Shown: positions 1,619 through 17,425 of the stretch, one piece after another | Numbering within the stretch: position 1 is the first letter of the stretch | Layout of the letters: every line of letters starts with the position of its first letter | NCBI GenBank assembly: GCA_030622115.1 | Contig: JAUXGN010000025.1 | Span: 1-36,460 of the forward strand | Length of the DNA: 36,460 bases | Reading direction: 5' to 3' | Source: Candidatus Eiseniibacteriota bacterium | Lineage (GTDB): Bacteria; Joyebacterota; Joyebacteria; Joyebacterales; Joyebacteraceae | Made by a program: the position numbers and the translations under genes | Notes under the pieces: generated by a model | Database searches by the model: none | What the model was told of the DNA's origin: nothing | What the model saw: the letters and a program-made list of their open reading frames with translations, nothing else

Positions 1619-2149
1619 ATGAGGAACCTGCTATTGGTTCTCATGATCCTGGCCGTTGCGACGTGCGCAATGGCTGACCGTAGTCTCGAGGGCTCCATGG
1701 TCACCCTGGTAGAGCCGGTTGGACCGGTGAATGTGAACGAGGTCTACACGTTCACATTCTTTGTCGAGAACATGTCCGAGGACTACGAGTACGTTGCCGA
1801 CATCACCATCGGCTTCCCCTATGGATTCACACCCTATGGCGACTCGATCGGTTGGGATCCTGGACCCAACTGGTTCTACTCGACCGGCAACTGGACGATG
1901 GAGACCATGGAGGGCGACGTATTCTGGCTGGACGCCGACGGAGGCTGGGGCGAGCTCGAGGACTACGAGGACTGCTTCGTGTACGTGGATGTGCTGGTTG
2001 AGGCAATACCGTCGCGCGAGGTGATCACCTGGGGGCTTCAGGGTGACATCTACGGCGAAGAGCCTCACTACGTGAGCGGCGAGATTGAGATCGGCGTGAC
2101 GCCGGTCGAGGTCGAGACCTGGACTGCGATCAAGGCACTGTACAGGTAG
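1619..2149 (+). CDS. Small secreted protein with SWGxIKxLYR-type C-terminal tag
   Basis: A protein of 176 residues. The ATG at 1619 is chosen over an upstream in-frame start at 1571 because AAGGAGG (1607-1613) sits 5 bases before it and the signal peptide (MRNLLLVLMILAVATCAMA, cleavage before DRSLEG) starts there. The mature part is an acidic, aromatic, beta-rich domain of about 140 residues resembling Ig-like/CARDB-type folds (TLVEPVGPVNVNEVYTFTF, then repeated Tyr/Trp/Asp strands); I do not recognise a specific family. The last 15 residues, TPVEVETWTAIKALYR without a FlgD-like domain, match the ends of the proteins at 5603, 6777 and the fragment at 17190. It is followed by a strong stem-loop. 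Role unknown; a surface or exported location is inferred. Confidence 0.85.
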   Translation: MRNLLLVLMILAVATCAMADRSLEGSMVTLVEPVGPVNVNEVYTFTFFVENMSEDYEYVADITIGFPYGFTPYGDSIGWDPGPNWFYSTGNWTMETMEGDVFWLDADGGWGELEDYEDCFVYVDVLVEAIPSREVITWGLQGDIYGEEPHYVSGEIEIGVTPVEVETWTAIKALYR

Positions 2150-2181
2150 AGAGCACGTTCAACAAAGACTCGGAACTACTC

Positions 2182-2213
2182 AGTAGGGCGGTCGCTTCCA
2201 TGGCCGCCCTACT
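2182..2213 (+). terminator. Stem-loop terminator after the 1619 gene
   Basis: Perfect 10-bp stem AGTAGGGCGG (2182-2191) with CCGCCCTACT (2204-2213) and a 12-base loop, 33 bases after the stop at 2149. No U-run follows, so it is an intrinsic-like or transcript-stabilising hairpin. It would also overlap the 3' end of the doubtful minus-strand ORF at 2209. Confidence 0.65.
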
Positions 2214-2397
2214 TCACGGTCATCGCGTTGTCGAAATCGGTGTCGGTGTACATTTTCTTCGTGTCGGCGTCGAACAGCGGATGCGGCGGTGGATCGTAGT
2301 CAGCCAGCGCGCAAGCCGGCAGCATGACAGCGATGAAGATAACGGCGGCGGTTGGCCGTCCGGAAATGTGTGCCACGGTCGGGGTCTGTGCAGCCAT
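2209..2397 (-). CDS. Possible small lipoprotein or gene remnant
   Basis: A short frame of 62 residues from ATG 2397 (a GTG at 2472 would give 87). Codon use is GC3-rich like real genes here. After the motif PTVAHISGRP comes a hydrophobic stretch with a lipobox-like LPAC, then a polar tail rich in Pro and Asp (DYDPPPHPLFDADTKKMYTD). No ribosome site precedes either start, and the stop lies inside the terminator hairpin of the opposing gene. The PTVAHI.GRP segment is 27/30 identical at DNA level to part of the membrane-protein gene at 4648. It may be a decayed or recombined relative rather than a working gene. The rest of the 2214-2561 stretch shows no other gene; the promoter of the 2562 gene was not identified. 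Confidence 0.3.
   Translation of the reverse strand: MAAQTPTVAHISGRPTAAVIFIAVMLPACALADYDPPPHPLFDADTKKMYTDTDFDNAMTVK
2354..2383. repeat. 30-bp near-repeat shared with 4733-4762
   Basis: 27 of 30 bases match 4733-4762. On the minus strand both copies read as the peptide PTVAHI(S/F)GRP. Confidence 0.7.
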
Positions 2398-2561
2398 AGC
2401 AGCAATCTTGGCACGAGTTCGGTTCGAATGCTCATCCTGCAGGACAGATGTGCTAGTATGGCAAGCAGACACTGGGTGCTTTCTTCAGGAACCAGCCGCC
2501 ACACTCGTGGGGTCAAAGAAGAGAGGACCGACGCACCGCATCCTGCACACAGGGGGGCACC

Positions 2562-4553
2562 ATGCGGATGACCGCCACGGAATGCTCTCACCGAGCGCCC
2601 ATTCTGCTCACGATCTCCTTGATTCTGCTTGCCTGTGTTCCGGCTCACGCCGGCGCCGATCCGTCATTCTGGGGTGTGGACGGTCACATGGTCTGGCCGC
2701 CGCGGGGCTTCCTGCCCGCACACATGGCGAAGATGAGCGACGCGGGCGTGACCGCGTACGGGATCGAGTTCCTCGATTGGGACACGGTCGTCGAGGACAC
2801 GCTCATTGCTGCGGCCGGACCCGATTCATTCGACTGGTTCTGGCCCGATCTGCACGTCCAGGCGGTCGAGGACCAGGGCGGCGACGCTCTCATCAAGATC
2901 TGGTGTCGCGCCGACTGGGCGACCGGGGGCGACTCACTGAACCCCCAGTGGCTCTGGCCGCCGAAGGACGGCCCGACTGGTGACCCTGACCGCTATTGGG
3001 ACTACTGGGGCGTTTTCTGCCGTGAGCTGGTTGAGCGCTATGATGGTGACGGAGTGCGTGACATGGGCCACGACACCGACGAGCCAGAGGATGACCTCGA
3101 CCACCCGCACCTCCATTTCCAGATACAGGGCGAGAGCGAGTGGCGCTGGCAGTCGACGGCCGCGGACTACGTGCGGCTCCTCGGGGTTGCTCACGACAGC
3201 ATGAAGGTCGCGTGCGATGACGTGCAGGTCTTCTACTCATCGTTCAATCTCGGCAACTACTTCGACGACAACCCGAGTCTGGAGGAGGCCAGACAGGCGT
3301 TCGCCCAGTCCGGCTCACTTGCCGTGGCGTTCGTCGAGACGATGCTCTCGGCCCCGCAGTACTTCGATGTCGCGCCGACGCAGATGAACCACGACTACAC
3401 CGGGATTCCCTCCAGGCTCCGCTGGCTCAACTGGGCGATGCAGGATTCGTTCGGGTACGACAGACCCATCTGGTTTGTCGATGCTGCGGCGGGCTACATG
3501 CTGAACAGCCATCCGCTCGGCGCGGTCGAGCCGAACCCCCACTACGCGGCGGTGAACCTGCCGCCCGACGTTCTGGCGTCGATCCAGACGCACCCGCAGT
3601 ATGCCGATTCACTGGTCGAGGGAATCATGGTCGACATTCTGCAGCGAGGGAGCGGGGCCGTCGCACCGGGTGACTACCGCGTGATCAAGGACTGGTGGGA
3701 GGCGGACAAGGCTGCCTACGCCCTCAAGAAATCGGCGATCTCTGCGGGGCTCGGCGTGAAGCACATCTACTCGCAATGGACATTCGAGAACAGCGCAGAT
3801 CCGTGTGTCGAGTTGTCGGGGTGGGCCACGTGCGGTCTCCTCGAGGACAAGGACCCTGACGACGAGTCGGACCTCGGGACGGCCAGACCCGTTTACTACA
3901 CCATGGCGCTCTTCAACAGGATCGTCGGCTCCTTCGACAGCGCCGAGGTCGTCCTGCCTGGTGGCCCCGGCGTGCTCGATGGGCTCGGCCCGCTCTGGTA
4001 CGAGACCTGGGTCATTGAGTTCGATCGTGGCGGAGACCCGCTCTTCATTGCGTGGGCCGACGAGGGCGCGGACACCGTGGACCTCACAGGTCTTGTCTCG
4101 GCCGATGATGTCATTGTGTCACACATCGTATCCGACCTCGACGGAAACGACGACCCTGTCTATCTCCCGGAGGAGACGTTCCCCGTCGACGAGGTCATCC
4201 TGAGCAGAGTACCGGTTTTCATCACCGGGTACCACGGAACATCGGTGAATGACGATCCCGCAGGCTTAGCGAGTCTCTTCCAGAGCATGCCGAATCCGTC
4301 GAGTGGCGCGGCGGCGATCCGTATCGCCTTCGCGCGGCCCGCTGAGCGCGACGGAGCCATTGTCAGGATCTACGATGGGGCCGGGCGTCTCGTGCGCGAA
4401 CTCGTGGTTCCGGTTGAAGATGATCCCGAGGCTGAGGTGATCTGGGATGGACGCGATTCGCTCGGGAGCCGCGCGTCGAGCGGCGTCTACTTCTACCAGC
4501 TGGTCACCGGCGGAGTGGCCGGACGGGGAAGGAAGCTCCTGCTGATCCGGTAG
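2562..4553 (+). CDS. Secreted TIM-barrel glycoside-hydrolase-like protein with FlgD-like C-terminal domain
   Basis: A protein of 663 residues starting at ATG 2562, with a G-rich ribosome site (GGGGGG) just upstream and a signal peptide ending near PAHAG (residue 31). Residues ~34-480 read as a (beta/alpha)8 barrel of the GH39/GH5-like (clan GH-A) type: WPPRGFLPAHMAKMSDAG, IKIWCRADWA, then QIQGESEW (188-194) followed by DYVRLL, which is where these families carry the acid/base 'NE..W...DY' motif, and RPIWFVDAAAGY (301-312), where the nucleophile Glu motif is expected. Here the Asn before the first Glu is Gly and the second Glu is Asp307. A beta-sandwich follows, and residues ~569-663 form the FlgD-like sorting domain (SMPNPSSGAAAIRIAF, WDGRDSLGSRASSGVYFYQL, ending KLLLIR). 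It is probably exported and cell-surface. The exact family is uncertain and the protein may be a non-hydrolytic homologue. Confidence 0.8.
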   Translation: MRMTATECSHRAPILLTISLILLACVPAHAGADPSFWGVDGHMVWPPRGFLPAHMAKMSDAGVTAYGIEFLDWDTVVEDTLIAAAGPDSFDWFWPDLHVQAVEDQGGDALIKIWCRADWATGGDSLNPQWLWPPKDGPTGDPDRYWDYWGVFCRELVERYDGDGVRDMGHDTDEPEDDLDHPHLHFQIQGESEWRWQSTAADYVRLLGVAHDSMKVACDDVQVFYSSFNLGNYFDDNPSLEEARQAFAQSGSLAVAFVETMLSAPQYFDVAPTQMNHDYTGIPSRLRWLNWAMQDSFGYDRPIWFVDAAAGYMLNSHPLGAVEPNPHYAAVNLPPDVLASIQTHPQYADSLVEGIMVDILQRGSGAVAPGDYRVIKDWWEADKAAYALKKSAISAGLGVKHIYSQWTFENSADPCVELSGWATCGLLEDKDPDDESDLGTARPVYYTMALFNRIVGSFDSAEVVLPGGPGVLDGLGPLWYETWVIEFDRGGDPLFIAWADEGADTVDLTGLVSADDVIVSHIVSDLDGNDDPVYLPEETFPVDEVILSRVPVFITGYHGTSVNDDPAGLASLFQSMPNPSSGAAAIRIAFARPAERDGAIVRIYDGAGRLVRELVVPVEDDPEAEVIWDGRDSLGSRASSGVYFYQLVTGGVAGRGRKLLLIR

Positions 4554-4647
4554 CCTCATCGGATGGGGAGGAGACTCCTGATGTCTCACCGAACGGGGGA
4601 GGACACAGTGCTGTCTGGTCGCACCGCGGCGCTTGCAGTCCGCCCGC

Positions 4648-5010
4648 CTACGCCTTCTTCGTGATGCACTTGCAGAAGCCGTGGTAGTTGGCGCAGATCC
4701 CGCCGAAGATCGAGAACAGACCCCAGAAGAGAGGCCGTCCGAAAATGTGTGCGACGGTCGGATCAGAGTGCGGAAGCAAGTAGATGCCCCACGTGACCAT
4801 GTAGCATCCGAGAGCAATGGCTATGTGGCCGAAGACGAGCGTTGCGATGCGCCCGCCGCGCCAGCCGAGGTAGATGAGTGTAAGACCGATGCCGAGCGGT
4901 ATGATTCCCGCCGTCAGTCCCCCACTCGCGCTGGTGAGGACTCCGAGCACAAACAGAATCGTTCCCAGAATCAGCGTGACCCAGCTATTGACGTGCTTGC
5001 CTTCAGGCAT
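4648..5010 (-). CDS. Small polytopic membrane protein, unknown function
   Basis: A protein of 120 residues from ATG 5010 with a good ribosome site (GGAGGAAA on the minus strand, just upstream). It shows about four hydrophobic segments: NSWVTLILGTILFVLGVLT, GLTAGIIPLGIGLTLIYLGW, IATLVFGHIAIALGCYMVTW and FWGLFSIFGGICANYHGF. A polar loop HSDPTVAHIFGRP precedes the last helix, and the tail is Cys/Lys-rich (CKCITKKA). I do not recognise the family. It is convergent with the glycoside-hydrolase-like gene ending at 4553; the 94 bases between contain an imperfect hairpin around 4561-4597 but no further gene. The loop motif recurs in the small frame at 2209-2397. Confidence 0.75.
   Translation of the reverse strand: MPEGKHVNSWVTLILGTILFVLGVLTSASGGLTAGIIPLGIGLTLIYLGWRGGRIATLVFGHIAIALGCYMVTWGIYLLPHSDPTVAHIFGRPLFWGLFSIFGGICANYHGFCKCITKKA
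4733..4762. repeat. 30-bp near-repeat shared with 2354-2383
   Basis: Partner of 2354-2383 (27/30 identical). It encodes the PTVAHIFGRP loop of the membrane protein at 4648. Confidence 0.7.
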
Positions 5011-5602: not shown

Positions 5603-6634
5603 ATGCGTAGAGTTCTGATTGTATTCATGGTTCTGGCCGTCGCGGCAATGGTGTCGGCGAAGGTCGATGATGTCCATCCGATCGCCACCCGTGGCCTTCT
5701 GGATTGCTCAAATGCGATCCCGATCGCGTGCGGTGACATCGACATTCCCGGCACGACTGTCGGCAGCGTCAACAATGTTGAGAATTATAGTGGCTGTGGC
5801 TGGACTGAGAGTGGTCCCGAGGTCGTCTACGAGTTCGTCATCCCGGAAGGCATCTGTCAGGAAATAGCGATCACAATCGACCCGGATGGCTGTGACCTGG
5901 ACGTCTTCCTCCTCGGTAGCTGCGAAGAGGCCGACTGCTTCGACTACGGCGATTCGTCGATCGTGAGCGATTGCCTCGAGGCGGGCACGTACTACATCGT
6001 CGTCGACGGCTACGGCGGAGCCGAGTGTGCCTTCACAATTACCGTCGAGTGTGTCGAGTGCGCGTGTCCCGAGCCGTGTCCCGAGGAGCAGAACTACCTC
6101 CCGCTCTATGAGGGATTCGAGCGCGGCGAGTGCTTCCCGCCGGCAGGTTGGACGATTCTGAACCTCGGCGATGATCCCGCCGGCGCGAGCTGGATCTGGG
6201 CCGACAACAGCTACATCTGCGACGGTCTTGGTGCCGCTCGCTGTACCTACGGTGGCTCGAGCGAGTACCAGGACGAGTGGTTCATCTCGCCGATCATGTA
6301 CCTTGAGGGTGAGACTGAAATCGTCGTGAGCTTCCAGCACAACATGGCCAGTTGGAGCTACTGCACGCATCCGATGCAGGTTCTCTACTCGACGACCGGA
6401 AGCGCTCCTGAGGACTTCACGCTTCGCCTGGACTACACGTGCGAGCTCCCGAATCCGCTCTGCGGGACGTCGATGCTGGAGATCGTCGGTCTGACAGGCG
6501 ATCACGTCTACGTCGCATGGCGTTACCAGGGTCTCTGGGCCGGTAGCTGGTACGTCGACAACGTTGCCGTTGAGGCGCTGGGAAATCCTGTCGAGGAGTC
6601 AAGCTGGGGTTCGATCAAGGCTCTGTACAGGTAG
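5603..6634 (+). CDS. Secreted PPC + cleaved-adhesin protein with SWGxIKALYR tag (copy 1)
   Basis: A protein of 343 residues. The ATG at 5603 has AGGAG (5590-5594) 8 bases upstream; a GTG two codons earlier is too close to it. Signal peptide: MRRVLIVFMVLAVAAMVSA. Residues ~32-150 form a bacterial pre-peptidase C-terminal (PPC) domain: DCSNAIPI, VVYEFVIPEG, CDLDVFLLGSC, GTYYIVVDGY. A Cys/Pro-rich linker (CVECACPEPCP) leads to residues ~165-325, a cleaved-adhesin/MAM-like jelly roll (EGFERGECFPPAGWTILN, DEWFISPIMYLEG, VAWRYQGLWAGSWYVDN). The protein ends NPVEESSWGSIKALYR in place of a FlgD-like domain. It has many paired Cys, consistent with an exported, disulphide-bonded protein. The next gene is a close tandem paralogue. 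No catalytic residues are seen, so an adhesin or structural surface role is inferred. Confidence 0.88.
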   Translation: MRRVLIVFMVLAVAAMVSAKVDDVHPIATRGLLDCSNAIPIACGDIDIPGTTVGSVNNVENYSGCGWTESGPEVVYEFVIPEGICQEIAITIDPDGCDLDVFLLGSCEEADCFDYGDSSIVSDCLEAGTYYIVVDGYGGAECAFTITVECVECACPEPCPEEQNYLPLYEGFERGECFPPAGWTILNLGDDPAGASWIWADNSYICDGLGAARCTYGGSSEYQDEWFISPIMYLEGETEIVVSFQHNMASWSYCTHPMQVLYSTTGSAPEDFTLRLDYTCELPNPLCGTSMLEIVGLTGDHVYVAWRYQGLWAGSWYVDNVAVEALGNPVEESSWGSIKALYR

Positions 6635-6776: not shown

Positions 6777-7811
6777 ATGCGGAGAGTTCTAGTTGTTCTT
6801 ATGGTTCTGGCCGTTGCTTCGATGGCGATCGCCAAGGTAGACAGTGATGCCAAGGTGGAGCGGACACGTGGGCTTCTGGATTGTTCGGCAGCGATTCCGA
6901 TCGTCTGTGGCGACATCGACATTCCCGGCACGACTGTCGGCGCTCCGAGCAACGTCTCGAGCTACAGCTGCAACAGCTGGAACGAGAGTGGTCCGGAGAT
7001 GGTCTACGAGTTCGTCATTCCGGCCGGCATCTGCTACGAAGTAGCGATCACCGTTGATCCGGATGGCTGCGATCTGGACCTGTACCTCCTCGGTAGCTGT
7101 GACGAGGACGACTGCCTTGACTACGGCGACTCGTCGATCGTCAGCGATTGCCTCGAAGAGGGCACGTACTACATCGTTGTTGACGGCTACAACGGAGCCG
7201 AGTGCGCCTACACGCTCACGGTCGAGTGTATCGAGTGCGAGTGCCCCCTGCCATGCCCGGACGAGGACAACTACCTTCCGTTCAGCGAGGGCTTCGAGCG
7301 CATGGAGTGCTTCCCGCCCGCAGGTTGGACGATCCTGAATCTTGGTGACGACACGGCAGGCGCGAGCTGGGGTTGGAACAACAACAGCTACTACATCTGC
7401 GACGGTCTCGGCGCGGCCAAGTGCTCGTACGGCGGCTCGAGCGAGTACCAGGACGAGTGGTTGATCACCCCGATAATCTATCTCGAGGGCGTGGCGGCGA
7501 TCGATATCAGCTTCCAGCACAACATGGGTATCTGGGGCGACTGCACGGATCCGATGCAGGTCCTCTACTCCACGACGGGCATTGCCCCCGAGGACTTCAC
7601 GCTGCGTCTGGACTACACGTGCGACCTCCCCAACCCGCTGTGCGGCACGTCCGTGCTGCCGGTGGACGGTCTCGGCGATCACATCTACGTCGCGTGGAGA
7701 TATCAGGGTACATGGGCCGGTATCTGGTACGTCGACAATGTTATTATCACTGAGCAGGTCAACCCCGTCGAGAACACGAGCTGGGGTTCGATCAAGTCTC
7801 TGTATAGGTAG
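6777..7811 (+). CDS. Secreted PPC + cleaved-adhesin protein with SWGxIKSLYR tag (copy 2)
   Basis: A protein of 344 residues. The ATG at 6777 has GAGGAGG (6764-6770) 6 bases upstream; a longer in-frame version from 6687 would run through the preceding hairpin and is rejected. Architecture and length are the same as the 5603 gene: signal peptide (MRRVLVVLMVLAVASMAIA), PPC domain (VVYEFV replaced by MVYEFVIPAG; CDLDLYLLGSC), Cys-rich linker (CIECECPLPCP), cleaved-adhesin domain (ERMECFPPAGWTILN, DEWLITPIIYLEG, AWRYQGTWAGIWYVDN), and the end NPVENTSWGSIKSLYR. By eye most positions are identical to copy 1. The gene plus its 3' hairpin look like one duplicated unit. Function as for copy 1: exported, probably adhesive or structural. 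Confidence 0.88.
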   Translation: MRRVLVVLMVLAVASMAIAKVDSDAKVERTRGLLDCSAAIPIVCGDIDIPGTTVGAPSNVSSYSCNSWNESGPEMVYEFVIPAGICYEVAITVDPDGCDLDLYLLGSCDEDDCLDYGDSSIVSDCLEEGTYYIVVDGYNGAECAYTLTVECIECECPLPCPDEDNYLPFSEGFERMECFPPAGWTILNLGDDTAGASWGWNNNSYYICDGLGAAKCSYGGSSEYQDEWLITPIIYLEGVAAIDISFQHNMGIWGDCTDPMQVLYSTTGIAPEDFTLRLDYTCDLPNPLCGTSVLPVDGLGDHIYVAWRYQGTWAGIWYVDNVIITEQVNPVENTSWGSIKSLYR

Positions 7812-7858
7812 GTTGTAGGATAGCGTACGTGACGCCACGTGCGTGAATCAGAGGGAGG

Positions 7859-7885
7859 GGGTGGCGGCGCACATCGTCGCCACCC
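7859..7885 (+). terminator. Stem-loop (GGGTGGCG family), copy 2
   Basis: GGGTGGCGGCG (7859-7869), loop CACAT, CGTCGCCACCC (7875-7885), 47 bases after the stop at 7811. Same sequence as 6685-6711; duplicated with the gene. Confidence 0.65.
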
Positions 7886-7927
7886 TCGACCTCGACACTG
7901 TGGATGCGAGAAGGAGGTCGCTGCGCC

Positions 7928-9400
7928 ATGTTGGAAAACAAAGGTGCTGTGTTGTCCTTGCTGATCGTTCTGATGATCTGCGGGACAGCGGTGGCCGCCC
8001 GGACGATTGTGGGAGAGAGCTTCGAGAGCACGGCGACGGAGCGAAACAATGCGCGGCTGGTCGTAGAGGATCTCGCGGGTGATCTGCACGTGGTCTACTA
8101 CGACTACGATGGAATCTACCACTCCATCGCGAACGGCATTGGCGCAAGCTGGTCTCTGCCGGAGCCTGTGGCGCTCGGCGGCAGGAATCCCTCGATCACG
8201 GTCGATTCCGAGAACGTGCTGCATCTCGCATATCGGCAGGGCACTCTTACATCGTTTGACATCATGCACAGGACATTCGATGGAGACTGGAGCGAGGCGG
8301 AGACCATCCATCACGATGGCTTGTCGGGTCTCTCGCGACCGGTTATTGCCGTGGATTCGGAGGACGGCCTCCATTGCGTGTGGCAGAGGCAGGGCTACGG
8401 ATCGACTCCGAATTCCGAGGTCTGGTACAAATACGCCGCCCCAGGTGGCGGATGGGCCGGCACGGCGATCAATGTCAGTAGTTCGTACGGGGCTTCCGAG
8501 TATCCGACGCTGACGATCGATCCTGGCGACAATATCTACGTTTTCTGGAAGGACTCGGGAGAGGTCATATCCTCCGACAAGAAGGTGCTCTTGAGGAAGT
8601 ACACCAAGGGCGCAGGATGGGACGCGGAGTACACGAACATCAGCAACACGACCGGGAACGGCAGCTACGCAACGATGGATCCCTGCGCTGTTGCCGACGC
8701 CGGGGGTACTGTTCATCTGGTCTGGAAGGACTCACAGACGGGAAACAGGGAGATCTTCTACAAGGCCTGTGTAGATGGTGTGTGGGATGCTTCCCCCCTG
8801 AACATCAGCGCGACATCGACAGCATCCGGCAGACCAAGTATCAGTGTGGACAACAGAGGTTGCCTGTACGTTGTCTGGGAAGAGAAGACAGACGGGGTCT
8901 ACTACGACATCGTGCGCAAGACGCGTGGAAGCGGCGGCGGTTGGTCTGAGATGGTCAACATCAGCGAATCGGCGGGAGTCGATTCGCGGTCCGCGAGCGC
9001 CCTTCCGATGACTGGACCGGCCTTCTGCTGCGTTTGGACCGAGGGCGAATCCGTGCCGTACGACATAGCTTTTCACTATGAAGAGACGACGGGCGTGGCC
9101 GAGACGGAGACTGGAGACAGCAGTGTCCTTCTCCTGAGGCGTAATCACCCCAATCCCTTCAGCTCGACAACAACGATACAATATGAGCTTCCCGAATCGG
9201 GCAGCGTGACTGTGACGCTCTACGATCTGTGTGGACGGCGAGTGAGAATACTCGTTCCCGGACAGACAGCGGCGGGCGTGCACGAGGTTGTCTGGGATGG
9301 GAAGAACGACAGCGGAGCAGATCTTGCGGCAGGCGTCTACTTCTGCACGGTAGCATGTGAAGGCAGAAGGGCGACTGCACGAATGGTCATTGTCCGGTAG
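7928..9400 (+). CDS. Secreted beta-propeller (BNR/sialidase-like) protein with FlgD-like C-terminal domain
   Basis: A protein of 490 residues. AAGGAGG (7911-7917) precedes the ATG at 7928 by 10 bases; the ATG eight codons earlier lies upstream of that site. Signal peptide: a hydrophobic run ending GTAVAA. Residues ~40-390 contain five or six repeats of the type 'P.i.vD..g.lhvvW.......eiwyk' (for example NPSITVDSENVLHLAYR, RPVIAVDSEDGLHCVWQR, YPTLTIDPGDNIYVFWK, RPSISVDNRGCLYVVWEE), typical of BNR/sialidase-like propellers. No catalytic Arg triad or Asp box can be assigned, so enzyme activity is not claimed. Residues ~405-490 form the FlgD-like domain (RRNHPNPFSSTTTIQY, LYDLCGRRVRILV, WDGKNDSGADLAAGVYF, ending ARMVIVR). 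It lies 20 bases before the next gene, so the two are very likely one operon. Confidence 0.85.
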   Translation: MLENKGAVLSLLIVLMICGTAVAARTIVGESFESTATERNNARLVVEDLAGDLHVVYYDYDGIYHSIANGIGASWSLPEPVALGGRNPSITVDSENVLHLAYRQGTLTSFDIMHRTFDGDWSEAETIHHDGLSGLSRPVIAVDSEDGLHCVWQRQGYGSTPNSEVWYKYAAPGGGWAGTAINVSSSYGASEYPTLTIDPGDNIYVFWKDSGEVISSDKKVLLRKYTKGAGWDAEYTNISNTTGNGSYATMDPCAVADAGGTVHLVWKDSQTGNREIFYKACVDGVWDASPLNISATSTASGRPSISVDNRGCLYVVWEEKTDGVYYDIVRKTRGSGGGWSEMVNISESAGVDSRSASALPMTGPAFCCVWTEGESVPYDIAFHYEETTGVAETETGDSSVLLLRRNHPNPFSSTTTIQYELPESGSVTVTLYDLCGRRVRILVPGQTAAGVHEVVWDGKNDSGADLAAGVYFCTVACEGRRATARMVIVR

Positions 9401-9419
9401 AACACCTGAAGGAGGTTGT

Positions 9420-12400
9420 ATGAGAACGGCAGTATTGGTGATGGCGATCCTTCTTGTCACGGCTCTGGCGGCCACGGCCGACTGGGTGATCGAGGAGGGG
9501 TTCGAGGGCGGTGTTATTCCCGCCGGATGGACAGTTCATGATGTGGACGACGACGGACGGACGTGGCGCGCCCTTGAGAGCGACTACAGCCACTCCGGTG
9601 CGTGGCTTGCGGTTACTGACTGCTATGAGAGCGGCGGCGAAGACTGGTTGATAACGCCGCAGGTTGCGGTGGCGGCCGGTGACTCGTTCGTGTTCTACGC
9701 GAGAGCTTGGTACGGCACCGAGGATTTCGAGGTCAGACTCTCGACTACGACGACATCGATTGGTGACTTCGACTATGTTCTGGGCACAGTGAGCGGCGCC
9801 ACCACAACGCACGTGAGGTACTCATACGACCTGAGCACCTACGCCGGTGAGGACTGCTACCTCGCCATCAGATGGCAGCAGGACGCGTTTGGTCTGGTAG
9901 TGGACGACGTCAAGGTCGGGTGGGGCATCTATGAGACGACCGATGTCGGCATGCTCTCCATAGAAGTTCCCGAACCCTACCAGCTGATTGACACGGGGTC
10001 GTATCCCTCCGGCACGATCCAAAACTACGGAACGGCCGAGATCACCGAGAATTTCGACATCGTCTGCGAGATCGCCGACGAGACCCGGGCGATCGTCTAC
10101 TCCGATACGGTCACTCACACCGGAACCATGGCGTACGAGGAAACGGCAGTCATCACGTTCGCCGTTGAGTGGGTACCGAGCGTGGCGGGCGACTACACGA
10201 TAACGATGGCGACGTCCCTGGCGGGGGATTCGGAGCCCGCGAACGATTCAATGGACAGCGAGACCGAGGTCGTGCTCCATTATGGAACCGGCGGCCCGGA
10301 TCCCTTCGGATACTGCTGGATCGACAGTGACGAGCTGGACGGTCCCGTCTACGACTGGATCGAGATCTCCACGAGCGGCAGGTCGGCCATCACGTACGAG
10401 GCCCCGTACTTCCATGGGGACGATAACATGTCGCCGCCGATTGCCATCGGATTCTCGTTCCCCTTCTACGGAATCGACCGCACGGAGATGTATATCGACA
10501 CGAACGGTGAGATCCTGCTCGCGGACAATCTCTGGTTCAACCATTATCCGAATGTTGGCTGGGAGTCGGATGGGAACATGTTCAACTACGTGTATCCCAT
10601 TCCCGGCTACTCGCAGATGCCCGGGCTCATTGCGGCCTACTGGGACGACCTCCTTGTGAATGAGGGCGTCGGTGATGTGTACTATGAGACCTTCGGCGAC
10701 GAGCCGAACCGCTACTGCGTCATCGAGTGGTACAACTTCCGGTACTGCTACGGTACTGTCGAGACGGAGACTCTCACCTTCGAGATCATACTTCACGAGA
10801 GCGGTGAGATTGTCTTCCAGTATCTGGACACAAACATTGGTCAGACAGGAAGCGTATGTCCTCACGATGATGGCAGGAGTTCCACCATCGCTATCCAGAA
10901 CGACACCGCAACCATCGGTCTCTGCTATCTAAGGGAGATCGTCGAGGGAATGTCCTACATCGGTGTCGAGCCGCCTGGGAACATCCTACACGATGAACTG
11001 GCGATCCGGTTCTACCTGGGTGAGGACGAGCAGCCGCCTGTCTTCGTGTATGAGGAGATGGGCAACACATTCGATACGACCCCGGAGATCACCGTCACGA
11101 TCGTGGACGCGACGGGCGTCGCGAGTGACCTGCTCCACTACAACGACGGCAGCGGCTGGGAGACGATGGCCCATACATCGTTCGAGGCGCCGGACATCTA
11201 TCATTACGTTGTTCCTCAGCTTCCGACGGGTGCGGAACTGAGCTACTACTTCGAGGCGACCGACGGTTCTGCGGCGGCAAACAGTGGAACGTGGCCGGTC
11301 GGGGCGCCGGGGGATGTGTACTCCTTCCGGATTCTGCCCACGAACGAAGTCAGGACGCTTCTTGCCTATCCTGGTGGACAGGACTACAACGGCATTGAGT
11401 TTGCGGAGTTCGAGGCAGGGCTTGATGAGGCAGACGTCGTGTACGACGTCTACAACTGGTTCGAGTATGAGAGCTATCGTTTTCCGCACAAGTACGAGGC
11501 CATCTTCATCTACGGCAACTCCTCGAGCGGCGGCTCGGAGCATGACACGCTCTCGGTGGCGCTGATGGACTATCTGGACAGCGGTACGAATGAGGAGCCC
11601 CGGAATCTCTTCTTCGCCTCCGATGGGTTTGCATACTCCCAGCATGGCGGGTCGAACGACGATCCGATGGTGAAGTTCTACACGGCCTATATCAGGGGTG
11701 GGTACATTCCCATCGGAAACCCGATCGAGCCGCCATTCGGCGGTACCGATGGTATCGGTGGCCCAGACACCTGGGACTACTCCTCCGGCAGTATCATCGG
11801 TCTCAGTGGCTCGCCCATTGGCCAGTACGGAGTTGAGCTTCCCGTCTACTCGAACACTCCCGATGTCCTCAGGAACGGGGATTGTCCCGCGTGGTACTGG
11901 GAACAAGTGACGAATCCGGAGATAAGTTCCTGGGCCGCGTTTGCATTCGAGGACGGTCCGATCAGCGGGAACGCGTACGCCCGTGGCAACGCGGCAGCGC
12001 TCTGGCTTAACAACTATATCTACAAGTCATTCTTCATCAGCTTCGATCTGTCGCAGTTTACGGGCAGCACGGTTGCGAAGATGCTGATCGCTGACGCTGT
12101 TGCCTGGTTTGGCGTCCCGACCGGCGTGACGGATCCGGGTGACGATGTGGTCGCCGCCGGGGTTGTGCTCATGCAGAACCGGCCGAACCCGTTCAACCCG
12201 ATCACCAGCATCGCCTACTCCATTCCGACTGAGGGGCACGTGACGATCGAGGTCTTCGACGTCAACGGCCGGAAGACGACGACGCTTGTTGATGAGCTCA
12301 AGTCCTCCGGTGCACATCAGATTGTCTGGGATGGAACCGACGACGGTGGGAACGCTGTCGGCAGCGGAGTCTACTTCTACAGGATCGACTCAGGCGGGTC

Positions 12401-12434
12401 GACCTCGACGAAGAAGATGATCCTGCTTAAGTAA
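9420..12434 (+). CDS. Large secreted multidomain protein (cleaved adhesin, Ig-like, NIDO-like, FlgD-like C-terminus)
   Basis: A protein of 1004 residues. The ATG at 9420 follows AAGGAGG (9409-9415); the upstream in-frame start at 9357 overlaps the previous gene and is rejected. Signal peptide ends near TALAATA. Residues ~20-190: cleaved-adhesin/MAM-like domain (EEGFEGGVIPAGWTVHDVDD, DWLITPQVAV, VVDDVKVGW). ~195-290: CARDB/Ig-like domain. ~300-530: a beta domain with 'IGFSFPFYGIDRTEMYIDTNGEI', 'GLIAAYWDDL' and 'FEIILHESGEIVFQY', as in NIDO-like and similar extracellular modules. ~540-640: Ig-like with an 'ISYYFEATD'-type strand. ~645-905: a segment reminiscent of extracellular peptidase-associated domains (LLAYPGGQDYNGIEF, ALMDYLDSG); I cannot name it. 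~915-1004: FlgD-like (QNRPNPFNPITSIAYSIP, WDGTDDGGNAVGSGVYFYRI, ending KKMILLK). No catalytic motif was found. Confidence 0.85.
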   Translation: MRTAVLVMAILLVTALAATADWVIEEGFEGGVIPAGWTVHDVDDDGRTWRALESDYSHSGAWLAVTDCYESGGEDWLITPQVAVAAGDSFVFYARAWYGTEDFEVRLSTTTTSIGDFDYVLGTVSGATTTHVRYSYDLSTYAGEDCYLAIRWQQDAFGLVVDDVKVGWGIYETTDVGMLSIEVPEPYQLIDTGSYPSGTIQNYGTAEITENFDIVCEIADETRAIVYSDTVTHTGTMAYEETAVITFAVEWVPSVAGDYTITMATSLAGDSEPANDSMDSETEVVLHYGTGGPDPFGYCWIDSDELDGPVYDWIEISTSGRSAITYEAPYFHGDDNMSPPIAIGFSFPFYGIDRTEMYIDTNGEILLADNLWFNHYPNVGWESDGNMFNYVYPIPGYSQMPGLIAAYWDDLLVNEGVGDVYYETFGDEPNRYCVIEWYNFRYCYGTVETETLTFEIILHESGEIVFQYLDTNIGQTGSVCPHDDGRSSTIAIQNDTATIGLCYLREIVEGMSYIGVEPPGNILHDELAIRFYLGEDEQPPVFVYEEMGNTFDTTPEITVTIVDATGVASDLLHYNDGSGWETMAHTSFEAPDIYHYVVPQLPTGAELSYYFEATDGSAAANSGTWPVGAPGDVYSFRILPTNEVRTLLAYPGGQDYNGIEFAEFEAGLDEADVVYDVYNWFEYESYRFPHKYEAIFIYGNSSSGGSEHDTLSVALMDYLDSGTNEEPRNLFFASDGFAYSQHGGSNDDPMVKFYTAYIRGGYIPIGNPIEPPFGGTDGIGGPDTWDYSSGSIIGLSGSPIGQYGVELPVYSNTPDVLRNGDCPAWYWEQVTNPEISSWAAFAFEDGPISGNAYARGNAAALWLNNYIYKSFFISFDLSQFTGSTVAKMLIADAVAWFGVPTGVTDPGDDVVAAGVVLMQNRPNPFNPITSIAYSIPTEGHVTIEVFDVNGRKTTTLVDELKSSGAHQIVWDGTDDGGNAVGSGVYFYRIDSGGSTSTKKMILLK

Positions 12435-12489
12435 GAGCACACGGACCGTCGCACACGGTCCAAGGTGTCACTAGTGGAGTCAAAGAAGA

Positions 12490-12521
12490 AGGGTGGCGAC
12501 GTGGGGATCAGTCGCCACCCT
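12490..12521. terminator. Bidirectional stem-loop (GGGTGGCG family), copy 3
   Basis: Perfect stem GGGTGGCGAC (12491-12500) with GTCGCCACCC (12511-12520), 10-base loop, extended by one A-T pair. It lies between convergent genes ending at 12434 (+) and 12592 (-), so it can stop both. Its stem resembles copies 1 and 2, but the loop differs. Confidence 0.7.
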
Positions 12522-12591
12522 CTCTTCGTTTGGATCCGGAAGTTGCCGCCGTGCGAAAGGACGTGTAGCGATAGCGCCGTGAACGGATGCG

Positions 12592-14064
12592 CTACCTGAT
12601 GAGGACCAGCTTTGCCGATGCGCTCTGGCTGCCCGCCTGCAGGCGACAAAAGTAGACGCCTGCGGCGATAGGTGCGCCGGTCTCATCTCTGCCGTCCCAC
12701 ACAGTCTCGTGTGATCCCGCCGGGCATTGCCCCGTGAGGAGCGTTCTGACACGCCGACCGCAGAGGTCGTAGATCTCAACGGTCACGTCGCTGGCGACGG
12801 GAAGCTGGTAGTGGATGTTCGTCGCATGGCCGAACGGGTTCGGATGGCTGCTCGTGACGGCAAGAGTTGTGTGTTGCGGTCCGGGACTATCAGGGACGCC
12901 GGTCTCGGAGTCGAGCTTCACGAGTCTAACGTTATACTCACCGTTGAAGAAGTCGTATGAATCACCCACAACGATGTAGCCGCCGTCCGGAGACTGGCGC
13001 GCGAATCTTGCCCAGTCGTGACTGTCGTCCCCAAAGGCGAGGGTCCACAGACTGTCGCCATCGGCATCGATTCTGACGATCCACATGTCGTCGTGACCCG
13101 CCCCGAAGGATTCAGTGTGCCCGGCGATGATGTATCCGCCGCCCGTGCACGGCGCTATCGACTCAGCTCCGTCATCCTCAGTGCCACCATGGGTCTTGGT
13201 CCAGAGAGTGTGACCGGAGGAGTCGGTCTCGACCAGCAGGAGATCATCGTCTCCCGCTCCATACGACTTCGTGCACCCGGCGAGTATGCAGCCGCCGGTG
13301 TCTGTCTCCAGAACGGATCTTCCGCCGTCCGAAGCGCTTCCGCCGAAGGTCCTTGTCCAGAGAGTATCGCCCACGCTGTCCGTCCGGATGAGCCACGCGT
13401 CACGGCTTCCGGCGCCGAATGAATAAGTGTCTCCGGCGATGGCGAAGCCGCCGTCGCTGCACTCGACGATCGACTGACCCCAGTCGGAGCTCGTGCCGCC
13501 GTACGTTTTCGTCCAGAGCGTATTGCCTTCGTCATCTGTTCTGATGAGCCAGGCCGCGCTCATTCCCGGGCCGTACGACTCAGTATATCCGATGACAGCG
13601 TAACCGCCATCGCTCGTGATCTCGACAGAGTATCCCCAGTCCCAGGCGCTTCCACCAAACGTCTTATCCCAGCTTGAATAGCCATCGGAGTCTGTCTTGA
13701 TGAGCCATATGTCGTACGCGCCGGCTCCATACGAGCCGGTCGTTCCGACGATGATGAACCCGCCGTCCCCAGTCTGTCGAACTGCGAATCCGCGCTCCTC
13801 ATAGAGGCCGCCGAACGTCCTCGTCCAGAGTTCGTTGCCGTATGCATCGGTTTTGATCAGCCAGACATCGTAGCCGCCGGGGCCATAGGATTCTGTGTCG
13901 GCGACGATGATGTATCCGCCGTCGGTGGTCGCGATCACGTCGCGTCCCCATTCGAACTGCCCGCCGCCAAACAGCTGTGTCCACATGACACCAGTGGAAG
14001 CCACCACAGGTGGGGCGACCGCGAGGAGCAGAGCACAACAGAGAACACCCACGATTGGTTTCAT
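12592..14064 (-). CDS. Secreted seven-repeat beta-propeller-like protein with FlgD-like C-terminal domain
   Basis: A protein of 490 residues. The ATG at 14064 has GGAGG 8 bases upstream on the minus strand. Signal peptide: MKPIVGVLCCALLLAVAPPVVAS. Residues ~28-390 hold seven copies of a ~52-residue repeat of the form 'FGG...D.G.SV..T.DGGYII.G.T.SYGAG..D.WLIKTD..G..LWTKT', the first six near-regular and the seventh diverged (FGDDSHDWARFARQ). Seven such blades fit a closed beta-propeller, as in the PQQ/'delta-60' repeat families. Residues ~400-490: FlgD-like domain (SSHPNPFGHATNIHYQLP, YDLCGRRVRTLL, WDGRDETGAPIAAGVYF, ending AKLVLIR). Exported, probably surface-bound; a binding role is more likely than catalysis. 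Convergent with the 9420 gene and divergent from the 14310 gene. Confidence 0.88.
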   Translation of the reverse strand: MKPIVGVLCCALLLAVAPPVVASTGVMWTQLFGGGQFEWGRDVIATTDGGYIIVADTESYGPGGYDVWLIKTDAYGNELWTRTFGGLYEERGFAVRQTGDGGFIIVGTTGSYGAGAYDIWLIKTDSDGYSSWDKTFGGSAWDWGYSVEITSDGGYAVIGYTESYGPGMSAAWLIRTDDEGNTLWTKTYGGTSSDWGQSIVECSDGGFAIAGDTYSFGAGSRDAWLIRTDSVGDTLWTRTFGGSASDGGRSVLETDTGGCILAGCTKSYGAGDDDLLLVETDSSGHTLWTKTHGGTEDDGAESIAPCTGGGYIIAGHTESFGAGHDDMWIVRIDADGDSLWTLAFGDDSHDWARFARQSPDGGYIVVGDSYDFFNGEYNVRLVKLDSETGVPDSPGPQHTTLAVTSSHPNPFGHATNIHYQLPVASDVTVEIYDLCGRRVRTLLTGQCPAGSHETVWDGRDETGAPIAAGVYFCRLQAGSQSASAKLVLIR

Positions 14065-14115: not shown

Positions 14116-14144
14116 AGTATAGCAGCTTGGAGAGAATAATTCGA
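14116..14144 (-). promoter_or_regulatory. Sigma70-like promoter for the seven-repeat protein
   Basis: On the minus strand: TCGAAT (14139-14144), 17-base spacer, TATACT (14116-14121; 5 of 6). The -35 is weak. It lies 51 bases upstream of the ATG at 14064. Confidence 0.45.
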
Positions 14145-14235
14145 TGGGGTAGAACCGGATATGCCAAGTGAATCCACACATCACTGCGGGCGCAGGCGAG
14201 CCGGCGGCTTCGTTTCCGGAGTTCAGCCATCATCG

Positions 14236-14264
14236 TTGACACGCTGCAAGGAAGGTGCTATTCT
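14236..14264 (+). promoter_or_regulatory. Sigma70-like promoter for the 14310 gene
   Basis: TTGACA (14236-14241), 17-base spacer, TATTCT (14259-14264), 45 bases before the ATG at 14310. Confidence 0.65.
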
Positions 14265-14309
14265 GATTGGCACATGAGCACTACTCTCTCAGGCCGAGAG
14301 GAGGACACG

Positions 14310-14834
14310 ATGAGGTGGTCACTGACGTTTCTGGTCGCGCTTGCTGTTGTTCTCGCGCTCATCCCTCCGGCGTACGCGGACTACACGATATCAGAGAGCG
14401 TCATAGGAAATGGGGGGGGCGAGGCGAGCGGCGGAAGCTACAGCGTTCTCGGCACCATCGGCCAGCCGGCGATCGGAGTTGCGAGTGGAACCTCGTACCT
14501 GACCGAGATAGGGTTCTGGTACCAGCCCGGCTGGATCCTGACCGATGTGTCTGATGGAGAGCTTTTCCCGACGGTCTTCTCCCTGGGACAGAACTTCCCG
14601 AATCCGTTCAACCCCGTGACGAACCTGCGCTTCAGTGTTCCTGAGCGCGCGCGTGTCACGGTGATACTCTACGACGTTGCGGGTCGCGAGGTCCGCACGC
14701 TGGCCAACGACGAGTTTGAGCCCGGGTTCCACGCTCTCGTTCTCAATGGCGCCGGCCTGCCGAGCGGAGTCTACTTCTGCCGGATGGTATCCCCCGACTT
14801 CACGGAGACCCGCAAGTTCGTGCTTCTCAAGTAG
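14310..14834 (+). CDS. Short secreted protein with FlgD-like C-terminal domain and internal G8 tract
   Basis: A protein of 174 residues. The ATG at 14310 has GAGGAGG a few bases upstream; an in-frame ATG at 14274 precedes the ribosome site. Signal peptide: MRWSLTFLVALAVVLALIPPAYA. Residues ~24-75 form a compact N-terminal motif (YTISESVIGNGGGEASGGSY, VLGTIGQPAIG, TEIGFWYQPGW) that recurs in small FlgD-tailed proteins of uncultured FCB bacteria. Residues ~85-174 are the sorting domain (GQNFPNPFNPVTNLRFSVPE, LYDVAGREVRTLA, LPSGVYFCRMVS, ending RKFVLLK). Eight consecutive G bases (14412-14419) lie early in the frame (Asn-Gly-Gly-Gly-Glu codons). The final 41 bases are repeated exactly at 15425. 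The protein is almost all sorting domain, so its own function is unknown. Confidence 0.85.
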   Translation: MRWSLTFLVALAVVLALIPPAYADYTISESVIGNGGGEASGGSYSVLGTIGQPAIGVASGTSYLTEIGFWYQPGWILTDVSDGELFPTVFSLGQNFPNPFNPVTNLRFSVPERARVTVILYDVAGREVRTLANDEFEPGFHALVLNGAGLPSGVYFCRMVSPDFTETRKFVLLK

Positions 14835-14877
14835 AATCACCACGTATAGAAACACCACAGTCGAGGTTTGGACGAGG

Positions 14878-14921
14878 CGGACAGGATTGTTCCCGCAACG
14901 GGTTCAGGTTCTGTCCGTTTT
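14878..14921 (+). terminator. Rho-independent-like terminator after the 14310 gene
   Basis: CGGACAG (14878-14884) pairs with CTGTCCG (14911-14917). An inner hairpin CCCG-CAA-CGGG lies in the loop, and TTTT (14918-14921) follows the stem. Confidence 0.65.
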
Positions 14922-15066
14922 CCTGTGTGTGAACGTGGATGCAGTATAATACGGCAGCTGCGCCATTGGAACGCATACCCAGCTATCACAAGGTAAACAG
15001 ATGATGTACATAGCGAGACACGAGGCAATGGCTAGCCCCAGCGTTCATGGTGTGCTATCATACCTA

Positions 15067-15085
15067 ATTAGCGCGTAGCGCTAAT
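15067..15085. repeat. Perfect 8-bp inverted repeat (palindromic element)
   Basis: ATTAGCGC, three bases GTA, GCGCTAAT. It lies in the gene-poor stretch and is not followed by a U-run. It could be a protein-binding site or an end of a lost element; nothing decides between these. Confidence 0.6.
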
Positions 15086-15302
15086 ACTGGAGCCGGCCCA
15101 TTCCTGAACTGCCGCAGGCGCTGATAGGAGGCTGCGCCGCGTTGGACAGGGCCGCATCATAGAAACCAGCCACTAGCCGCCCGCTGCATCGGCCCGGCCT
15201 TGCGTCGCCGGATGCCCCTCATGTGAGCCACACCGCCGTATTCGGGGATCCGGCTTTCTCAGAGAGAGTAGCGATTCGGAAGGAGGCGACTTATGGGCGC
15301 GC

Positions 15303-15389
15303 GTTTTCGGCCGCGTGGACGCGTGGTTCGCGATGGGAGACAGCCTCTTCGCTCACTCGGGGCCCGTGTATCTGACGGTGGACGGCCAG
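15303..15389 (+). pseudogene. Remnant resembling the C-terminal beta domain of CehA/McbA-type metallohydrolases
   Basis: In the frame starting at 15303, 29 codons read VFGRVDAWFAMGD then SLFAHSGPVYLTVDGQ. The 'W.A....... FAHS.PVYL.V.G' pattern is what I associate with the C-terminal beta domain of PHP-type CehA/McbA-like proteins. There is no matching upstream domain, and the frame ends in unrelated sequence, so this would be a truncated relic. Recognition is from a short motif only. Confidence 0.35.
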
Positions 15390-15424
15390 CGCGAAAGTGG
15401 TCCTTGTGAGGTGAGGCAGAATGG

Positions 15425-15465
15425 CCGACTTCACGGAGACCCGCAAGTTCGTGCTTCTCAAGTAG
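15425..15465 (+). repeat. Exact 41-bp copy of the 3' end of the 14310 gene
   Basis: Identical to 14794-14834, including the stop codon. It encodes the last residues of the FlgD-like domain (DFTETRKFVLLK). Sequence after the stop (ATCACC..CAGT.GAGGT) also partly matches. An ATG at 15421 gives only a 14-codon frame, so this is a relic of a lost FlgD-tailed gene or a partial duplication. Confidence 0.85.
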
Positions 15466-15508
15466 TATCACCGCAGTTGAGGTCCAGATGATGAGGCCAC
15501 TTCTATGA

Positions 15509-17176
15509 ATGCTGGAGTCATCTCCGATGATTGATGAGACAAGACCTGAGAGCAGCCGGAGTAGCAGCCCGAGCTTGGGGCGATTCGACCGCGGACTGTG
15601 GGCTGCCGTTTCGTTGGCACTCAGCCTCTGGATCTTCAAGGTCGCTGTGATAGCGTTCTATCCTCTTCGGAAGCTGGTGATGACCGCGTGGCTATCGGAC
15701 GATGCGTTCATCTTCATGCGCATAGCTCGGAATGTAGCTCTCGGGCGGGGCTACTCGTTCGACGGAGAGCGACTGACCTCAGGGGCTCCGCTGCTCTGGG
15801 TGTGGTTGACGCTTCCCTGGCAGATGTTCCTCAACAGGGGGTCGGCCGCGAAGGCCACGCTCATGACCTCGGGGTTCTTCGGTGCTCTCTCCACCGTCGT
15901 CGTCTTCTGGATTGCAGACAAACTCTTCGGTCGGCTCGCCGCGTGGGTGGCGTTTGTATTAAGCGCTCTCAGCCTCCCGCTGGTGCTCAACGGCATGAAC
16001 GGTATGGAGACGTCGGTCTTCACCTTTCTCGGCCTTCTTGCAGTTGCGCTCTACCTGAGAGTGCGGGCATCGCGGTCGACTTGGAGGGGCTACCTGCTGC
16101 TCGGTTGTCTACTTGGTCTTCTTCACCTCACGAGGACGGACGGAATCTTCCTGACGTTCGCGGTCCTGCTAGCCGAGTTTGCGCGACTCATAGCGCTGGC
16201 CCCGGAAGAGCGGCGGCACGCGGCCGGAGAGATTGCTGCTCTAGTGGTAGGTGCGGCAATCCTGACGGTTCCTGTTCTCGTGCTTACCTTCAGTGCGACG
16301 GGGAAGTTCGCTCCTGCGAATCAAGTAGGCCGTCGGGCTCTCGCGTGGCAAGCCGCCGCCGGTGCAGATGGACGGATTAGCATCGTGGAATACGCGGCGC
16401 GAAGCGTTTTTCAGATGCTTTCACTGCAGCGACTCATCTCGATCGCGACGGGTTCGAGCGTTCTTACCGCGCTTGTGCTGTTCGTGGCTGGCTGGCGCGG
16501 ACGCGGGAGGCTCCTTGCCCGCATCATCGGGGTCTACGCGGCTGGCTTTTTCGGGGCCCTTGTGTTCTACCAGTGGTACTTCCCCGATGTTCACGGTCTG
16601 CGCTATCTGAATCTGCCATCCCATCTTGTGGCGGTCCTCACGGCCGGCTTCCTGACGTATGTAGTCAGGCGCGTCGCTTGCGGGAGGCTTGGGCAGACGG
16701 CCATCCTTACAGTTGTCGTCGCGTTGACACTTGGCACCACCGCGTTCCAATACCGGGAGCTGACCTCATCCATGGATCCAGTGATCGGGAAGCGGCTCGT
16801 GCCCAGCTACTCTTCTGCAGAGGTGGCTCGATGGTGGCAGTTGATCGACTGGATGGCGGTCGAATTGGAGCCAGGGACGGTCGTGGCAGCGACGGATCAT
16901 GGCAGGATCGCCTACTTCACGGATGTGAAGGTACTCGACTTGGACGGCATTCTACTGCCCGAGATCATCCGGCATCTTGAGGAAGGGAGTGTGGAGTCGT
17001 ACTTCGACGAGAACGAGGTTGAATACGTACTGCTGCCGAACAGCAAGAAGAAGCTGATTTGCCGCTATCTCACCGAGACGGGGCGCGTTGTTCCCGCTGA
17101 GGGTGTTCCACCTGACCTGGGCCGCGTGCTCTACTACTGGAAGCCGCCTCCGGCCGCAGAGGCGACCTCGTCCTGA
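15509..17176 (+). CDS. Polytopic GT-C-fold glycosyltransferase-like membrane protein
   Basis: A protein of 555 residues with about ten predicted membrane helices and a short soluble C-terminal part. After the first helix it carries WLSDDAFIFMRIARNVALGRGYSF (split here: SDDAF, NVALGRGYSF), the Asp-Asp loop used by GT-C enzymes of the ArnT/PMT/AftB kind, followed by TSGAPLLWVW, NGMETSVF and RTDGIFL, motifs shared by this superfamily. Such enzymes transfer a sugar from a lipid-phosphate donor on the outer face of the inner membrane. The acceptor cannot be told. Starts at ATG 15509 or ATG 15527 are both possible; ribosome sites are weak for both. The downstream phosphatase-superfamily genes suggest a shared envelope-modification role (inference). 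Confidence 0.75.
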   Translation: MLESSPMIDETRPESSRSSSPSLGRFDRGLWAAVSLALSLWIFKVAVIAFYPLRKLVMTAWLSDDAFIFMRIARNVALGRGYSFDGERLTSGAPLLWVWLTLPWQMFLNRGSAAKATLMTSGFFGALSTVVVFWIADKLFGRLAAWVAFVLSALSLPLVLNGMNGMETSVFTFLGLLAVALYLRVRASRSTWRGYLLLGCLLGLLHLTRTDGIFLTFAVLLAEFARLIALAPEERRHAAGEIAALVVGAAILTVPVLVLTFSATGKFAPANQVGRRALAWQAAAGADGRISIVEYAARSVFQMLSLQRLISIATGSSVLTALVLFVAGWRGRGRLLARIIGVYAAGFFGALVFYQWYFPDVHGLRYLNLPSHLVAVLTAGFLTYVVRRVACGRLGQTAILTVVVALTLGTTAFQYRELTSSMDPVIGKRLVPSYSSAEVARWWQLIDWMAVELEPGTVVAATDHGRIAYFTDVKVLDLDGILLPEIIRHLEEGSVESYFDENEVEYVLLPNSKKKLICRYLTETGRVVPAEGVPPDLGRVLYYWKPPPAAEATSS

Positions 17177-17189
17177 ATCGCAGTTCAGG

Positions 17190-17425
17190 CTACTTGTACA
17201 TCGGCTTGATCACACCCCAGCTCGCCGGGTTGACCGGCGTTCCGCATGCCGGACAGCCTTCATCAAACGCGCCGAAGAGGAGTTCGCAGTCGTTGAATGC
17301 GGGCAGAGACGGCGAGTCCGCGCAGAGGTAGAGGTCGTAGAAAGCCGGCTCGCAGAAGAGCGGGTCGGCCGTCATGTTGCCGCCTGTTGACTCCTGCCCG
17401 GCGATGCAGTCTACCCAGTCGGCAG
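17190..17425 (-). pseudogene. C-terminal fragment of a right-handed beta-helix protein with SWGxIKxMYK tag
   Basis: Minus-strand frame ending at 17190. From about 17425 it reads DWVDCIAGQ, then NMTADPLFCEP, LYLCADSPSLPAFNDC and LFGAFDEGC, the terminal coil of parallel beta-helix (PbH1/pectate-lyase-like) surface proteins ('ADPLFC....Y.L..dSPc.......C..iGA...GC'). It ends with GTPVNPASWGVIKPMYK, the short tag seen on three intact proteins here. The beta-helix body and signal peptide are missing; upstream lies the promoter of the opposite-strand gene at 17519. An open frame of 96 codons starts at 17480, but its first ~19 residues do not look like protein. It is therefore a truncated gene rather than a functional one. 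Confidence 0.65.

Follow-up and report, generated by a model that had tools for sequence, protein, structure and literature searches.

A C-terminal tag on secreted proteins of the window

The window analysed here is a stretch of 36,460 nucleotides from Candidatus Eiseniibacteriota bacterium (contig JAUXGN010000025.1), in which several secreted proteins end in the same short tail, hereafter the tag. The original prediction placed this tag on four proteins of differing architecture, and all four tails were found at the ends of the corresponding open reading frames (ORFs), which terminate at positions 2149, 6634, 7811 and, on the minus strand, 17190 (Table 1). The bodies of these proteins are indeed diverse, but the window holds three independent architectures rather than four, because those ending at 6634 and 7811 are close paralogues of each other. 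Six other secreted proteins were said to carry a FlgD-like domain, and the domain scans agree; this FlgD-like/Por_Secre_tail domain is the type A C-terminal domain (CTD) of the type IX secretion system (T9SS).

Table 1. Tag-ended proteins of the window and secreted proteins ending in a type A CTD.
Feature	Position	Strand	Evidence
Secreted protein, 176 aa, tag-ended	1619-2149	+	ORF and signal-peptide-like start; 0 Pfam families
Tag TPVEVETWTAIKALYR and stop	2099-2149	+	Sequence; genome pattern match C30:2120-2149
Secreted protein with PPC-like region and choice-of-anchor J, tag-ended	5603-6634	+	NF038128 51 bits (cutoff 30); PPC weak
Tag NPVEESSWGSIKALYR and stop	6584-6634	+	Sequence; pattern match C30:6605-6634
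Paralogue of the 5603-6634 protein, tag-ended	6777-7811	+	NF038128 50.8 bits
Tag NPVENTSWGSIKSLYR and stop	7761-7811	+	Sequence; pattern match C30:7782-7811
Beta-helix protein fragment, 96 aa, tag-ended, no recognisable N-terminus	17190-17480	-	Homology to CTD-ended G000:C58 (L266) protein
Tag TPVNPASWGVIKPMYK and stop	17190-17240	-	Sequence; pattern match C30:17190-17219
Secreted protein with FlgD-like type A CTD (alternative signal)	2562-4553	+	PF13860 27.5 bits; TIGR04183 18.8 bits, below cutoff
Secreted protein with type A CTD	7904-9400	+	PF13860 46.5 bits; TIGR04183 above cutoff
Choice-of-anchor J protein with type A CTD	9414-12434	+	NF038128 76.9 bits; TIGR04183 36.4 bits
Beta-propeller-like secreted protein with type A CTD	12592-14064	-	Pfam/NCBIfam domain scans
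Short secreted protein with type A CTD	14274-14834	+	PF18962 30.1 bits; TIGR04183 35.4 bits
Secreted protein with type A CTD	30491-31312	+	PF13860 42.5 bits; TIGR04183 36.2 bits

Conservation of the tag across the genome

In the genome to which the window belongs (G000; 2.63 Mb in 98 contigs), alignment of the tails gave the full consensus [ST]PVExxSWGxIKx[LM]YR-stop, about 16 residues. The dozens of matches expected at protein ends were found: a stop-anchored pattern matched 40 times and its reversed control not once. When the stop was dropped from the pattern the number of sites rose to 50, nine of the ten extra sites ending 1-12 residues beyond the tag and one being internal. The tag thus does not lie mostly inside proteins (1 of 50 sites), an outcome that would have spoken against the original prediction. 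At the internal site (L056), WGAIKTLYR is followed by ESATPESQGEARDERP in a longer frame of exported type, which resembles an inserted tagged end or two joined genes.

Several positions are conserved although the pattern did not impose them, namely P (41/49 tails), V (44/49), E (38/49), S or T before the W (46/49), G (43/49) and A (35/49). Over the last ten codons the information content is 1.36 bits per base; it falls to 0.086 across the 60 bases 3' of the stop, where 0.068 is expected by chance. The third codon positions of the tag are freer than the others. Because conservation stops at the stop codon while third positions vary, selection on the tag is, by this pattern, at the peptide level, and an origin as a DNA repeat or mobile element was rejected. 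The wider notion that a spreading repeat or recent paralogy has left these proteins ending in the same letters strikes us as scarcely credible. Some carriers are close tandem paralogues (those ending at 6634 and 7811, and a cluster on G000:C95), but the codon pattern and the spread across phyla refute it, the bodies are diverse, and the tail was recovered by a search that used a body alone (see below).

No Pfam or NCBIfam model was found for the tail on the scanned proteins. A literature search returned no named tag of this kind, and the motif strings were absent from the 5.39 million papers searched. The tag has the look of a very short signal for protein sorting, hitherto undescribed.

Passenger proteins and exchange with the type A CTD

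The predicted signal peptides were found. Under one home-made rule, a signal-peptide-like start was present in 40 of the 44 tagged ORFs that have a stop upstream in the available DNA, compared with 61 of 415 other ORFs (15%). The tag also extends beyond close paralogues of the four window proteins, and its passengers include beta-helix and choice-of-anchor J proteins as well as some that match no Pfam family.

The type A sorting domain (TIGR04183) has 98 matches in the genome, none of which is directly followed by the tag in the same frame and protein. That no protein would bear both signals is true of the tagged proteins of the window; genome-wide there is a single exception (L052), so that the two ends are near-exclusive rather than strictly so. 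Moreover, they are found on related passengers. In tagged beta-helix proteins, homology to a CTD-ended protein encoded in the same genome extends over as many as 470 residues (40% identity over this length, E = 1e-83), and the fragment ending at 17190 matches the body of that protein with 49% identity over 59 aa (E = 1.5e-12). Similarly, two choice-of-anchor J proteins of the window have the tag (5603-6634, 6777-7811) and a third has the type A CTD (9414-12434). Homologues or members of one domain class with either tail indicate that the tag and the type A CTD are alternative ends on the same kinds of passenger.

Co-occurrence with T9SS genes

The genome encodes SprA (TIGR04189, 547 bits; cutoff 200), PorU (NF033707, 534 bits; cutoff 420) and, adjoining PorU, a PorV-family protein (NF033709, 243 bits; cutoff 90), all over the curated cutoffs. 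PorV-family outer-membrane proteins number 16 in this 2.6-Mb genome and 9-19 in each relative. Within the window's phylum the tag is present in all 20 genomes examined, at 22-64 copies each, and SprA_N was detected in 17 of them, the other three being 57-78% complete. A gene that by eye resembles an M28-type glutaminyl cyclase adjoins sprA in several phyla (L202, positions 7098-8003; L205, L207 and L208).

Outside the phylum we searched 270 genomes from across the domain. The wide stop-anchored pattern matches by chance in AT-rich genomes, so the tight pattern WG..IK..[YF]R-stop was used for the comparison with SprA. It occurred in 25 of the 270 genomes, from 19 families, in keeping with the expectation that the tag would reach related phyla. 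SprA_N was found in 24 of these 25 and in 46 of the 245 untagged genomes (Fisher p = 6e-15, in a test that ignores shared ancestry). All carriers identified by name belong to the Fibrobacteres-Chlorobi-Bacteroidetes (FCB) group, and as the statistic takes no account of kinship, the tag and SprA might be old FCB features that co-occur by descent alone, with the tail serving some unrelated envelope function. We regard this as very unlikely, since the exchange of tag and CTD and their equivalence behind an FN3-like domain (see below) do not depend on co-occurrence by descent, and the gene neighbourhoods of porD and of a second PorU-type protein also speak against it.

A single-copy FN3-like protein

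A scan of GTDB genomes for TWG-S/T-IKA-FR-stop returned at least 80 loci, nearly all of which, among those listed, belong to one family of secreted proteins of about 130 residues with a fibronectin type III (FN3)-like fold; in other FCB phyla, the tag mostly occurs as one copy per genome, on this small protein. Judged by title, the hosts of the family are Ignavibacteria, KSB1, Neomarinimicrobiota, Delongbacteria, Caldithrix, Zixibacteriota, Chlorobi and Bacteroidetes. The tail of the protein is near-invariant while the body diverges, although across the scanned loci the conservation of the tail is partly imposed by the scan pattern. To get round this circularity, we searched 60 genomes with a profile of the tail-less body. 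The FN3-like domain was recovered in large proteins, with a type A CTD behind it, and in 12 small single-domain proteins, all 12 of which end in WGSIKA[MLI] plus FR or LK. By this comparison, the tag occupies the position of the CTD behind the FN3-like domain. A fold search with the FN3 protein gave generic FN3-like matches and nothing more specific.

In seven of the listed loci, a DUF4835 (PorD) gene lies just upstream of the FN3-like tagged gene on the same strand (PF16119, E = 4.5e-25; NF052317, E = 1e-25, below its 170-bit cutoff). The extended T9SS translocon of Flavobacterium includes PorD (PMC10994853). Many Ignavibacteria instead have genes for a SpoIID-like protein and Maf next to the FN3-like gene. 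The porD neighbourhood and the near-invariant tail on a divergent body would suit a docking peptide for a T9SS-associated complex, in which case the tagged proteins would be accessory factors, periplasmic or bound to the translocon, and not secreted cargo. We consider this improbable: in the window's phylum the tag sits on dozens of diverse proteins of surface type, such as beta-helix and choice-of-anchor J proteins, and homologues of these end in the CTD used for secretion.

Predicted structure of the tail

In the AlphaFold model of the single-copy protein, the FN3-like sandwich has a mean predicted local distance difference test (pLDDT) score of 90 and the tail forms a helix at residues 121-132 with a pLDDT of about 66-73. 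For the tandem family that lies beside the second PorU-type gene described below, the body is beta-rich and the tail is a helix at residues 168-180 (pLDDT about 45-50). These models suggest that the tail is probably flexible and takes up its fold on binding a partner. The helical hydrophobic moment is weakly above that of shuffled tails, 24% of shuffles reaching the mean, and support for an amphipathic helix from this measure was dropped, as it barely exceeds the shuffles.

A terminal helix detached from the body, rich in W, I, L/M and Y/F together with K and R, on proteins that are Sec-exported, could also be an anchor that binds the membrane or a receptor and holds periplasmic proteins at the outer membrane, with neither secretion nor handling by the T9SS. 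We think this unlikely: the weak hydrophobic moment gives it little help, a generic amphipathic anchor would not need the near-invariant W, I and K, and it leaves the co-occurrence with SprA, the exchange of tag and CTD, and the second PorU-type protein unexplained.

A second PorU-type sortase

The original prediction also called for a co-occurring family of processing enzymes, and a candidate was found in a second clade of PorU-type sortases. In the window's phylum this second protein is about 1,250 aa long, with a propeptide, a C25 peptidase and a CTD, and across the phylum its gene neighbours a tandem array of tagged genes, two to five in number, that code for one family of about 190 residues. 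The second copy scores 269 bits against NF033707, below the 420-bit cutoff, and is not a PorU equivalog; against NCBI's PorU2 it scores 114 bits, below 450. In several genera the tandem array is separated from the second PorU-type gene by one for a multihaem cytochrome c554-like protein (L292, positions 11674-12774; L294, L297, L299 and L300).

A quick tree of 33 C25 proteins separates the second PorU-type protein from both canonical PorU and C25 cargo and places it in a clade of 14 rows (support 100) with proteins of genomes G117, G255, G153, G213, G226 and G085; the catalytic His and Cys are kept in 14/14 members of this clade. Of the seven outside genomes that hold at least three tight tags, these six have a member of the clade; in the seventh, G044, no second PorU-type protein was found. 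In G153, G213 and G255, too, tagged genes are found no more than about 5 kb from the second PorU-type gene, with the variant WGxVK in the last two, which brings the lineages with such a neighbourhood to four. The C25 protein beside tagged genes at G153:C161 was not counted, as it is C25 cargo with FG-GAP and beta-helix parts and falls outside the PorU-type clade. Since the independent events are few, the link of the second PorU-type protein to processing of the tag is suggestive only.

Comparison with known sorting signals

The tag resembles the type A CTD (TIGR04183, PF18962; here also FlgD_ig, PF13860) in being C-terminal on many unrelated Sec-exported proteins, in occupying the same positions on homologous passengers in the same SprA/PorU/PorV genomes, and in its basic last residue. 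Short C-terminal extensions are likewise common to both, since CTDs tolerate them (PMC11285876). It differs in length and fold, being about 16 residues and predicted, at low confidence, to be helical, whereas the CTD is an Ig-like beta-sandwich of 70-90 residues; on the four window proteins it has no match to TIGR04183 or PF18962, and it lacks the GxY motif.

The T9SS accepts signals far below the classical CTD length. The signal of HBP35 lies within its last 22 residues (PMC11285876), and Prevotella intermedia has short CTDs of 40-51 residues that form a three-stranded sheet with motifs B, D (GxY) and E (PMC11969387). The tag, at 16 residues, has neither the sheet nor motifs B, D and E, and because the known short T9SS signals keep CTD motifs that it lacks, we do not class it as a CTD: it may work like one but fails the tests of membership.

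Like the tag, the T9SS type B CTD (TIGR04131; CHU_C, PF13585) is an alternative to type A, with a different destination. It folds as a domain of about 80 residues, and no match to TIGR04131 or PF13585 was found on the tagged proteins of the window. The sortase and exosortase signals LPXTG, PEP-CTERM and MYXO-CTERM also combine a short conserved tail on many exported proteins with a candidate processing enzyme; they consist of a motif, a transmembrane segment and a basic end, while the tag has no hydrophobic segment and its motif is the end itself. Finally, the second PorU-type protein shares with PorU (NF033707, C25 family) the propeptide, the C25 peptidase, the CTD, the His and Cys and the HE motif, but forms a separate clade and falls under the PorU cutoff.

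Elsewhere in the window, positions 17519-25610 hold four long ORFs, three of them on the plus strand, with starts resembling alkaline phosphatases or phosphodiesterases (LGLDGxDP/LGIDGMDW).

A candidate sorting signal of the T9SS

With moderate confidence, we read the tag as a short C-terminal sorting signal that passes Sec-exported proteins on to a T9SS-linked route at the outer membrane, as an alternative to the type A CTD. The sorting-signal reading of the original prediction is thereby supported, by genomics alone. More tentatively, the 16-residue helical tail may represent a third class of T9SS signal, without kinship to the known CTDs, in FCB phyla outside the classical Bacteroidota, expanded in several lineages to dozens of cargo proteins with a PorU-type sortase of their own.

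Several observations weigh against this interpretation. The tag has neither the fold nor the motifs of a CTD, and the one protein with both signals (G000:C16:9-620) consists of a signal peptide, a CTD-like domain and the tag, with little else in its mature part. One tag is internal (G000:C42:291-316). The association with SprA is uncorrected for shared ancestry, 46 SprA genomes have no tag, and none was found in G222, the single classical Bacteroidota-like SprA genome searched. A PorD profile search found nothing in the 20 genomes of the phylum, nor did it in the controls, and no protein of the second PorU-type clade was found in genomes with one or two tags.

If the tag is such a T9SS signal, tagged proteins would first be exported by Sec, as their signal peptides suggest. 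The flexible, probably helical tail would then be recognised by an outer-membrane component of the T9SS, perhaps one of the 16 PorV-family proteins, and the proteins would pass through the SprA machinery or dock at it, a step to which the co-occurrence with SprA, the porD neighbourhood and the exchange of tag and CTD all point. In tag-rich lineages, the second PorU-type sortase may process or attach at least some tagged proteins, as its co-occurrence, intact catalytic residues and gene adjacency suggest. The older form may be the single-copy FN3-like protein present in many FCB phyla, and the tag would at a later stage have been copied onto many passengers.

Normally, the CTD is what identifies T9SS cargo. 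Should the tail be a second signal, some 20-60 exported proteins in each genome of the window's phylum would be absent from cargo lists, and a peptide of 16 residues could serve to study cargo recognition. The single-copy FN3-like protein, encoded beside porD in some lineages, would then be a candidate for an undescribed T9SS-associated protein.

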